This document shows positions 48,096 through 51,543 of a stretch of 64,000 bases of DNA, one piece after another (position 1 is the stretch's first letter; each line of letters begins with the position of its first letter). Source of the DNA: Actinomycetota bacterium (lineage in GTDB: Bacteria; Actinomycetota; Actinomycetes; JACCUZ01); assembly GCA_030841035.1 (NCBI GenBank), contig JAVEDI010000055.1:1-64000 (forward strand), given 5' to 3'. The translations under genes were made by a program, and so were the position numbers. The notes under the pieces are model-generated. The model ran no database searches and was not told the DNA's origin. It was given only the letters and a program-made list of their open reading frames with translations.

Positions 48096-49169
48096 TCAGA
48101 CGAACCGCGCGGCCACGGTCAGGAAGATGTCGTTGGCCTCGGTCTCGCCGATCGTGACGCGGACCCCCTCCTCGCCGAAGGGACGTACGACGACGCCCGC
48201 CTGCTGGCAGGCGGTGGCGAAGTCCGGCGTCCGCTCACCGAGGCGCAGCCAGAGGAAGTTGGCCTCCGACGCGGACACCGAGGACCAGCCCTGCTCGCGC
48301 AACGCGTCATGCACCCGCGAGCGCTCCTTGACCAAGCCCTCCACGCGCTCCAGCAGCTCGTCTTCGGCCGCCAGCGACGCGGTGGCCGCGACCTGCGCGA
48401 CGCCGCTGACGCCGAACGGCACTGCCGTCGCGCGCAGCGCCTCGGCCACCGGCTCGTGGGCGACCGCGAAGCCGACCCGCAGCCCGGCCAGCCCGTAGGC
48501 CTTGGAGAACGTCCGCAGTACGGCGACGTTGGGCCGGTCGCGGTAGACCTCGAGCCCGTCGGGCACGTCGGGGTCGCGCACGAACTCGCGGTAGGCCTCG
48601 TCGATGACGACCAGGACGTCACGGGGCACCCGGTCCAGGAAGGCGCCCAGCTCGTCGCGGCGTACGGCGGTGCCGGTGGGGTTGTTCGGTGAGCACACGA
48701 ACACCAGCCGGGTGCGCTCGGAGATGGCGTCGGCCATCGCCGCGAGGTCGTGGCGCTCGTCGCTGGTCAGCGGCACGGTCACCGGCCGGGCACCGGAGAT
48801 CTGCACCACGATCGGGTAGGCCTCGAACGATCGCCAGGCGTAGACCACCTCGTCGCCCTCACCCGCCGTCGCCTGCACGATCTGCTGCAGGACACCGACC
48901 GAGCCGGTGCCCGTCGCGATGTGGGTCGTGGGCACGTCCAGGCGCGCCGCGATCGCGGCCACGAGGCCCGACGCGAACAGGTCCGGGTAGCGGTTGAAGC
49001 GGCCGGCCTCCCGGGACACCGCGTCGAGCACGGACGGCAGCGGCGGGTAGGGGTTCTCGTTGGAGGACAACTTGTAGCTCATGGCCCCGTCGCGGACGGC
49101 GGCCGGCCGGCCGGGCTTGTAGGTGGGGACGCCCTGCAGGGCGCCGCGCAGCCGGGGTGAGGTGCTCAT
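48096..49169 (-). CDS. Histidinol-phosphate / aromatic amino acid aminotransferase
   Basis: A 357-residue PLP enzyme of the fold I aminotransferases, HisC/Pat group: [12 protein letters not shown] at the N-terminus, [21 protein letters not shown], and the PLP Lys in [13 protein letters not shown]. Pat (aromatic) and HisC cannot be separated by sight; not being in a his operon favours a Pat-like or second HisC role. ATG 49169; ATG 49178 is an alternative. Confidence 0.88.
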
Positions 49170-49214
49170 GCCCGTCACCCTAGAGGCCGTCGCCCGCTCC
49201 GGCGGCGAGTGTGG

Positions 49215-49781
49215 TCAGTCGAGCGGGGGCAGCGCGGTGAGGCACAGCCGCGGGTCCTCGTGGTAGCGCGCGACAAGATCCGCCGTTGCCCTGTCCAGCC
49301 GACGGTGCAACGCCTCGCGGTACGACGACAGCACGCTCTCCGCGCTCGCGAGGCGCGCGCTGAGCCCGCGCCCGTCGACCACGGCCGGCGAGCCGACCTC
49401 GCTGGCCCACAGGTCGGGTAGCTGCGGGAGGATCGGCATCGCGGTGTCGGGGTGCAGCGACAGCATCGCCTGGCGCCCCGCGGAGCGCTGCTCCGTCAGG
49501 GTGTCGCGCAGCAGATCGAGGTCAGCACCCGCCTCCGGCACGTTCAGCAGGTCGCGACGGGCCTGCAGGAGCCGGCGCCAGTACGACGTCCGCAGCTCCT
49601 CGGACAGCAGGGTCCGCCGGTAGGCGCGCAGCCGCTCGAGGCTCATGTGCGCCAGCTCCTCGCTGCGCTGCGGCGGGTTGAGCCGACGCAGCGGCGAGTG
49701 GCCAGACGGCCGCGCCCGGACGGCAGCAAGGTCGCCCGGCCCCTGGACGGCAGTCGCTCCCACGGGTGTCACGGTTGCCAT
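49215..49781 (-). CDS. rsiG: RsiG-like c-di-GMP-binding anti-sigma factor candidate
   Basis: A 188-residue, mostly helical protein. Residues 62-77 match the RsiG c-di-GMP motif E-x3-S-x2-R-x3-Q-x3-D exactly (E62, S66, R69, Q73, D77, in LRTSYWRRLLQARRDLL). A second copy at 148-163 reads E148, S152, R155, H159, D163, so Gln is His. RsiG of Streptomyces binds c-di-GMP on two such helices and then captures the flagellar-type sigma factor WhiG. No sigma gene is in the window; the REC-EAL protein at 18.2 kb shows c-di-GMP signalling nearby. Lacks enzymatic domains. Start at ATG 49781. Confidence 0.72.
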   Translation of the reverse strand: MATVTPVGATAVQGPGDLAAVRARPSGHSPLRRLNPPQRSEELAHMSLERLRAYRRTLLSEELRTSYWRRLLQARRDLLNVPEAGADLDLLRDTLTEQRSAGRQAMLSLHPDTAMPILPQLPDLWASEVGSPAVVDGRGLSARLASAESVLSSYREALHRRLDRATADLVARYHEDPRLCLTALPPLD

Positions 49782-49826
49782 ATCGGCGCGAATGCCGCGC
49801 CCCTTGACGTCTCTGACCCGACGGCA

Positions 49827-50666
49827 TCAGCCGGGCCCGGTCGCCACCCGTCGCAGCACGGCCGCGGCCACCTCGGGCGCGTGGGTCTCGGCCAGCCAGT
49901 GCCCGGCATCGAGCTGCTCGAGGCGGTAGTCGGCGAGGACGAAGTCGCGCGTCCGGCGGGCGGCCGCCGGGGCGAAGAACGGGTCCCGGCTGCCGAAGAC
50001 CAGGCTCGTGGGCACGTGCGTGCGCCCCGCGGGGTGGCTCCGGGAAGCGGCGATGCCGCGGTACCACCCCAGCATCGCGCTCAACGCGCCCGGCTCGCGG
50101 ACCCGCTCCAGGTAGTGCCCGACCCGGTCGGCCGGCAGCCCGGACCGGCTCAGCAGCTCGCGCACCAGCCAGCCCTGCCGGGCGAGCAGGACGCGCTCGG
50201 GGACGCCGGGCAGCTGGAAGAACCCGATGTAGGACGAGCGGAGGAGCTGCGAGCTGCTGCGCATGGCCGCCGCGAGCGCACCCGGGTGCGGCGTGGACAG
50301 CACGGTCAGCGACTGCACGCGTTCGGCATGGCGGCCCGCCAGGGCCCAGGCGACGGCGCCGCCCCAGTCGTGCCCGACGACATGGGCGCGCTGGACCTGC
50401 GCGGCGTCGAGGAGGGCCAGCACGTCGGCCACGAGCTGCGGCATCGCGTAGCCGGCCCGGCCCCCGTCGCGGGGGCGCGCGCCGCGCGAGTAGCCGCGCT
50501 GGTCGGGCACCAGGACGCGCAGGCCCGCGTCGACGAGGCGCGGGACCACGGCGTCGTACGACGTGGCGTCCTGCGGGAAGCCGTGCAGGCAGACGACCGT
50601 GCCCCGCTCACCCGTGCCGCAGTCGTGCACGTCGAAGTGCAGCCCTGCACGCTCAAAGCTCTGCAT
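49827..50666 (-). CDS. Alpha/beta hydrolase, epoxide hydrolase/haloalkane dehalogenase-like
   Basis: A 279-residue alpha/beta hydrolase. The oxyanion region is LHGFPQDA, the nucleophile elbow GHDWGG places Asp as nucleophile (as in epoxide hydrolases and haloalkane dehalogenases rather than Ser esterases), an acid lies in FGSRDPFF, and the catalytic His is in LDAGHWLAE. ATG 50666 is used, which overlaps the upstream SpoU gene by 14 bases. Cytosolic. Confidence 0.87.
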   Translation of the reverse strand: MQSFERAGLHFDVHDCGTGERGTVVCLHGFPQDATSYDAVVPRLVDAGLRVLVPDQRGYSRGARPRDGGRAGYAMPQLVADVLALLDAAQVQRAHVVGHDWGGAVAWALAGRHAERVQSLTVLSTPHPGALAAAMRSSSQLLRSSYIGFFQLPGVPERVLLARQGWLVRELLSRSGLPADRVGHYLERVREPGALSAMLGWYRGIAASRSHPAGRTHVPTSLVFGSRDPFFAPAAARRTRDFVLADYRLEQLDAGHWLAETHAPEVAAAVLRRVATGPG

Positions 50667-51543
50667 GGCCGCAGATCCTGCCCCCGTCGGGGGACGGCCA
50701 CGCCCGCCGCGCGGGAAAGCCCCGCTGCCTGGCCGCCTCGTAGAGCACCACCGTGCCCGCAGACGCCGCGTTGAGCGAGCTCGCGTCACCACCGATGGGG
50801 ATGCGCACCACCTGGGTGCAGGCGTCGCGCCAGCCCGCGCTCATGCCCGCCGTCTCGTTGCCGACCACGAGCAGGGTCGGGCCCCGCAGCTCGGCCTCTG
50901 GCAGCGCCGTCGGGCCGGTCTCGTCGGTCCCCACCACGGCGACCGGTCCTGGGCCGCGCTCGACCCAGCGCAGCACGTCCTGGGTCGCGGCGGCCGGCAC
51001 GCACGGCAGCGCGAACAGCGACCCGGTGCTGGCCCGCACCGTACGCGGGTCCCACAGGTCCGCGGCGTGCCCGCAGACGACGACGCCACGAGCGCCGAAC
51101 GCGTCGGCCGAGCGGATCAGCGTGCCGAGGTTGCCCGGGCTGCTCGGTCGGTCGAACACCACGACCAGCCCGTCGCGGCCGAGGTCGATCCGAGCGAGAT
51201 CCGGCGGCGGGATGCGGGCCACGGCAAGCAGCTCGGGTACGTCGGCGTCGCTGCCCGCGGGCGCGTCGCGGTCGGCGAGCGCCTGCATCAGGTCAGGGGC
51301 GAGCGCGAGCTGCTCGGCGTCGCTGCCGGCCAGCGCCTCGCGCGCCCACGACGAGAGCGCCCGGTCGTCCCGGTGCAGCAACGCGGACAGCGGCCACTCG
51401 TGGCGCAGCGCCAGCGTGATGGGCCGCACCCCGTGCACGAGGAACTCGCCCAGCCGGTGACGCTTGCTGCGGTTGGCCAGCAACGACTCCCACTGCTGGA
51501 AGCGTGCGTTGCGCGTCGTGACGCGGCGGGTGGCGCGGGACAT
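50653..51543 (-). CDS. SpoU (TrmH) family RNA 2'-O-methyltransferase
   Basis: A 296-residue RNA methyltransferase. The SPOUT motifs are DRPSSPGNLGTLIRSADAFGA, LVVGNETAGMS and RIPIGGDASSLNAASAG, which form the knotted SAM site. The N-terminal ~95 residues form an RNA-binding domain (HRLGEFLVHGVRPITLAL). Target rRNA or tRNA nucleotide not predictable. ATG 51543. Its 3' end overlaps the start of the alpha/beta hydrolase gene. Confidence 0.9.
   Translation of the reverse strand: MSRATRRVTTRNARFQQWESLLANRSKRHRLGEFLVHGVRPITLALRHEWPLSALLHRDDRALSSWAREALAGSDAEQLALAPDLMQALADRDAPAGSDADVPELLAVARIPPPDLARIDLGRDGLVVVFDRPSSPGNLGTLIRSADAFGARGVVVCGHAADLWDPRTVRASTGSLFALPCVPAAATQDVLRWVERGPGPVAVVGTDETGPTALPEAELRGPTLLVVGNETAGMSAGWRDACTQVVRIPIGGDASSLNAASAGTVVLYEAARQRGFPARRAWPSPDGGRICGHAEL

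Follow-up and report, generated by a model that had tools for sequence, protein, structure and literature searches.

A paralogue of the anti-sigma factor RsiG with a twin c-di-GMP motif and a putative WhiG/FliA-type promoter in an Actinomycetota genome

The window analysed here is a 64,000-nucleotide stretch of contig JAVEDI010000055.1 (assembly GCA_030841035.1) from an Actinomycetota bacterium of the lineage JACCUZ01. On its reverse strand lies a gene of the RsiG family, the cyclic di-GMP (c-di-GMP)-dependent anti-sigma factors of WhiG, with its two ligand motifs and a putative promoter of its own (Table 1). The gene was initially annotated as a frame at 49215-49781 on the minus strand, opening with ATG at 49781 and encoding 188 amino acids. 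Since this ATG falls within the -10 element of the conserved promoter, and since in 7/7 orthologues a GTG or ATG start is located 8-9 nucleotides past the CGAT of that element, the true start is probably the GTG at 49770-49772. The protein would then consist of 185 amino acids, each residue number being lowered by three; the numbering used below is that of the longer frame.

Table 1. Features of the RsiG-family locus and its surroundings in the window
Feature	Position	Strand	Basis or remark
RsiG-family paralogue (group C), proposed coding sequence	49215..49772	-	PF22802 1.1e-12; orthologue starts; AlphaFold
c-di-GMP motif 1, E-x3-S-x2-R-x3-Q-x3-D, perfect	49551..49598	-	ELRTSYWRRLLQARRD, residues 62-77
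c-di-GMP motif 2, E-x3-S-x2-R-x3-H-x3-D	49293..49340	-	ESVLSSYREALHRRLD, residues 148-163
-35-like TCAAG, WhiG/FliA-type promoter (putative)	49803..49807	-	in all C (7/7) and B (6/6) genes of the order, 0/7 canonical rsiG
-10-like GCCGATAT	49780..49787	-	N17 between TCAAG and CGAT; sigma-28 consensus TAAA/GCCGATAA (PMC8325347)
CGGGTCA box (CGGGTGA in orthologues)	49814..49820	-	conserved 6-7 nucleotides upstream of TCAAG
Aminotransferase class I/II (HisC-like), next gene downstream	48096..49178	-	synteny L032-L036; Pfam; conserved group C neighbour
Alpha/beta hydrolase, upstream gene (context only)	49827..50792	-	adjoining gene

Membership of the RsiG family, proposed by the initial annotation, is demonstrated computationally. 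The protein matches the Pfam family RsiG (PF22802) with an E-value of 1.1e-12 and a score of 47.9 bits (cut-off 27). A single-sequence phmmer comparison with Streptomyces venezuelae RsiG gives only a weak match (1.1e-3), while a profile built from 13 homologues of the type found here (groups B and C, see below) aligns with this protein (6pfj) over most of its length at 6.5e-12, and with the single-motif RsiG of Rubrobacter at about 3e-6. The AlphaFold model of a 177-amino-acid construct, with a predicted local distance difference test score (pLDDT) of 82.8, contains two long helices (37-69 and 126-164) arranged as the antiparallel helical coiled coil typical of the family. The top four Foldseek matches in the PDB are all RsiG chains, with probabilities of 0.94-1.00, although the E-value is only 7e-3 and the template modelling score about 0.5. 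A search of the protein against NCBIfam returned no match, and the order-level search again retrieved the RsiG family and nothing beyond it.

Both c-di-GMP motifs are present as described in the initial annotation: the first is exact, with Gln at the variable position, and the second deviates by His159 alone (codon 49305-49307), the other motif-2 positions being intact. In shuffles of the protein one motif with Gln or His occurs in 0.04% of cases, and two motifs in 0/200,000. All motif residues are invariant in the 13/13 B and C proteins of the order, and the motif-2 His is found in 81/81 close relatives of the scan set; a few other relatives, including the copies in pilus clusters of Nocardioides-like genomes, carry Phe at this position. 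The exchange was therefore rejected as a local peculiarity. Being fixed as His or at least aromatic throughout the clade, residue 159 is, judging from the alignment, a lineage marker, one of the meanings initially suggested for it. His often replaces Gln in motif 1 of RsiG proteins and can make the same stacking contact; moreover, a natural His-type RsiG, that of Conexibacter (C. woesei), binds c-di-GMP with a dissociation constant (Kd) of 25 uM, compared with 12 uM for a Gln-type protein (PMC8325347). By analogy, a dramatic effect of His159 on binding is unlikely. The more telling degeneracy of the aligned clade is that of the motif-2 Asp, the residue reading the splayed guanine, which is kept in 36/81 relatives and lost in 45/81; the window protein has retained it. 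In one genome (G032) a gene at the usual B position between nth and crp (L177) has lost most of the motif residues (SSRRD / SGRVD); the same genome also holds further RsiG-type copies (L181, L182).

The initial annotation missed that the window gene is one of three RsiG-family genes in its genome. The first (A, L005:8795-9364) is the canonical RsiG, with Gln in both motifs, and adjoins a 3-keto-acid-cleavage-like gene; the second (B, L006:8795-~9337) carries Gln and then His and lies between crp and nth; the third (C) is the window gene. The latter is not the canonical rsiG orthologue: it belongs to a separate clade, and the canonical locus, with its 3-keto-acid-cleavage-like and asparaginase-like neighbours, is found elsewhere. 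Two genes away from the canonical rsiG, L005:10383-13217 encodes a long protein that combines DUF4388 with repeats rich in Ala and Glu. Across the eight genomes of the order A occurs in 8, C in 7 and B in 6, the gaps falling in the less complete assemblies. In a tree of 161 sequences B and C are separated from A with a support of 1.0, two aberrant sequences and L147 standing on the B side; the seven C genes, which keep the HisC-like neighbour, are monophyletic (1.0) and nested within the B-type diversity. Thus, the window gene is, as far as tree and synteny demonstrate computationally, a divergent paralogue that arose by duplication of the B type linked to crp and nth. A scan with one genome per species yielded 80 B loci, in Frankiales-like metagenome-assembled genomes (MAGs), Motilibacter, Acidothermus, Nanopelagicales, Nocardioides and others, and B lies between nth and crp, or adjoins crp, in 64/75 loci (L037-L111). 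Among 297 genomes drawn from across the class, RsiG carriers outside Streptomyces mostly possess both A and B; in Streptomyces nothing beyond the two helices of A is seen. On this distribution, B/C is a widespread and uncharacterised second branch of RsiG.

The two groups also differ in what precedes them. TCAAG-N17-GCCGAT (or GTCGAT, GACGAT) is located immediately upstream of 7/7 C orthologues, and TCAAG-N17-CGAT, with the same spacing, before 6/6 B genes of the order, as compared to 0/7 canonical genes. Over all loci, a score of 8/9 or better is reached by 84/115 non-A (B/C) genes, with a spacer of 17 in 72 of them, versus 1/44 canonical genes (Fisher 1.5e-17, a value inflated by the relatedness of the sequences, which are not independent). 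Its taxonomic spread and constant spacing argue that the footprint is functional. The element resembles the sigma-28/WhiG consensus TAAA-N15-GCCGATAA (PMC8325347) and may represent a WhiG/FliA-like promoter; a published actinobacterial FliA consensus was not found in a limited look at the literature. Given the footprint and its fixed distance from the start codon, a leaderless mRNA beginning at GTG 49772 is predicted.

Elsewhere in the window genome the element with GNCGAT occurs 34 times, compared with 7 for the reversed pattern. A genome-wide count was nevertheless rejected as proof, since TCAAG...CGAT is frequent whatever the spacing, probably owing to codon usage; the footprint and the location of the sites serve as the argument instead. 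Four of the 14 N17 sites fall on a single 46-kb contig (C77; P about 2.5e-5), in a type IV pilus cluster, just upstream of or close to its pilM, pilT, minor pilin and roadblock genes. This cluster encodes PilB with an MshEN domain, a PilT-like ATPase, PilC, pilins, a prepilin peptidase, PilM, PilN, PilO, roadblock and DUF4388 proteins (the latter at L247:7843-9132) and a small GTPase. TCAAG-N16-GCCGATA also stands directly upstream of a PAS-GGDEF-EAL gene (L249:126-3254, G000 C70), a position suggestive of possible c-di-GMP feedback. In Rubrobacter, where the RsiG-WhiG switch operates, WhiG promoters precede pil and dgc/pde genes (PMC8325347), and the placement of the element in the window genome appears to mirror this arrangement. 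The sigma factor that the window protein would restrain probably also drives type IV pili.

A candidate for this sigma factor exists. The window genome encodes one WhiG (L013:1072-1953), whose KYVAGR sequence leaves the c-di-GMP contacts K57, G61 and R62 intact, together with 25 GGDEF proteins. Sigma factors of the FliA/WhiG type score above the cut-off in about 84/87 RsiG-positive genomes versus 10/about 210 others. The sigmas of RsiG genomes retain the K/G/R contacts, save for one with R in place of K, and 9/10 FliA-type sigmas from genomes without RsiG have lost them; the contact residues thus track the presence of RsiG. One genome (G148) has, at L270, a KYVAGR FliA-type sigma; its surroundings include an EAL-like gene and a pilin fragment, and no RsiG homologue was found there. 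In Nocardioides-like genomes only B-type RsiG is present, and its gene adjoins and overlaps pilB, encoding a PilB with MshEN, in a pilus cluster with its own WhiG/FliA-type sigma (L209:5129-15328; L212); the same N17 element precedes pilM. In a further genome (G130) the B-type gene and a gene for a FliA-type sigma lie side by side in divergent orientation.

The initial annotation had taken the gene to imply c-di-GMP control of a WhiG/FliA sigma factor. This interpretation is partly supported: a WhiG with the contact residues is indeed present, but the genome has a separate canonical Gln/Gln RsiG, so that the window gene is not in itself evidence for the classic switch. We propose instead, with a probability of roughly 0.6, that it encodes a sigma-induced, c-di-GMP-dependent anti-sigma paralogue exerting negative feedback on a pilus regulon. 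A twin-motif RsiG-type anti-sigma factor of the B/C clade would be expressed from the WhiG/FliA-type promoter. Free WhiG, reading the element, would transcribe genes for type IV pili together with those for the anti-sigma factors B and C and at least one gene of c-di-GMP turnover. As its level rises, c-di-GMP would bind to B and C and enable them to capture the sigma factor, so that the regulon is switched off. Such delayed negative feedback would be added on top of canonical RsiG, which itself lacks a promoter of this kind. More tentatively, and with considerable doubt, a second RsiG clade induced by its own sigma could place one WhiG under up to three c-di-GMP-loaded anti-sigma factors, the asymmetric and often Asp-less second half-site sensing another range or stoichiometry of c-di-GMP and timing the expression of type IV pili.

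Several observations weigh against the feedback model. Counted without further criteria over the whole genome, TCAAG...CGAT exceeds its background (about 18 per spacing) by a modest margin only. Individual sites away from the footprint may therefore have arisen by chance, and some of those in the pilus cluster fall close to coding sequence or inside it. The element, uncalibrated against known WhiG promoters of this group, departs from TAAA-N15-GCCGATAA, and the Nocardioides-type B genes have no element of their own, presumably as they sit inside an operon. Furthermore, B lies mostly beside crp and not beside a sigma gene, and a FliA-type sigma with intact KYVAGR (L252, G148) occurs with no detectable RsiG.

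An alternative is that B and C bind c-di-GMP and have a partner other than WhiG, namely another sigma factor, Crp (whose gene adjoins B) or the pilus motor; as members of the WhiG regulon they would then serve the pilus programme as effectors of c-di-GMP and not as feedback anti-sigma factors. MshEN is a known c-di-GMP-binding domain, and the overlap of B-type genes with pilB encoding such a protein agrees with this view, as do the position of B directly upstream of crp in those 64/75 loci, a linker and C-terminal region unlike those of canonical RsiG, and the absence of B from Streptomyces, which has WhiG. We nevertheless regard it as rather unlikely, considering the closeness of B-type genes to dedicated sigmas of the WhiG/FliA type in the Nocardioides-like genomes and G130, the co-occurrence of RsiG and sigma across genomes, and the profile alignment, which extends past the motif helices of S. 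venezuelae RsiG. Less probable still is that motif 2 represents, through its His and in many relatives its missing Asp, a half-site with weak binding, another stoichiometry or another cyclic dinucleotide, B and C competing with canonical RsiG for one WhiG. The loss of Asp set against the constancy of His, the Phe variants, and the ratio of three RsiG-type proteins to a single WhiG would fit this idea; the window protein, however, is intact at all five motif-2 positions apart from the Gln-to-His exchange, and the natural His-type protein does bind c-di-GMP (PMC8325347). Finally, a decaying duplicate with no present function, to which a lineage-restricted extra copy and the degenerate relative L177 might point, is very improbable given that C persists in 7/8 genomes of the order, where its orthologues retain every motif residue together with a conserved core and the conserved promoter footprint.

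RsiG-WhiG has been described as the only known c-di-GMP-controlled pair of sigma and anti-sigma factors, and a survey of RsiG counted nearly one copy per genome (PMC8325347). In the titles and abstracts of RsiG-mentioning literature from 2021 on, no clade of RsiG paralogues is reported. If the feedback model holds, a second clade, broadly distributed and equipped with a sigma-type promoter of its own, would turn a single switch into a layered feedback circuit, and the pilus connection of Rubrobacter would reach many Actinomycetes. In addition, the natural variants (Gln, His or Phe; Asp lost) could be used to establish which ligand contacts matter.

Among the characterised systems, the window protein shares with S. 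venezuelae RsiG (6pfj, 6pfv), the twin-motif anti-sigma factor of WhiG, the Pfam family, the antiparallel two-helix architecture, the two E-S-R-Q/H-D motifs and a WhiG in the genome. It differs in belonging to another clade, in the His replacing Gln in motif 2, in a shorter linker with PILPxLPxLW, in the C-terminus RYHEDPxxCLxALP, in its putative WhiG-type promoter and in its coexistence with a canonical copy. With the single-motif RsiG of Rubrobacter and Conexibacter (7lq2-7lq4; PMC8325347) it has in common the c-di-GMP motif, of which the Conexibacter protein is a natural His variant, and the tie to type IV pili and dgc/pde genes; those proteins, in contrast, are homodimers with one motif per chain, whereas here two motifs lie in one chain. 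The second RsiG copy of Acidothermus cellulolyticus, reported as a single exception (PMC8325347), is probably a B-type protein, as an Acidothermus MAG (L055) has B beside crp; in the genomes compared here, by contrast, B recurs in numerous genera, with C as an additional duplicate.
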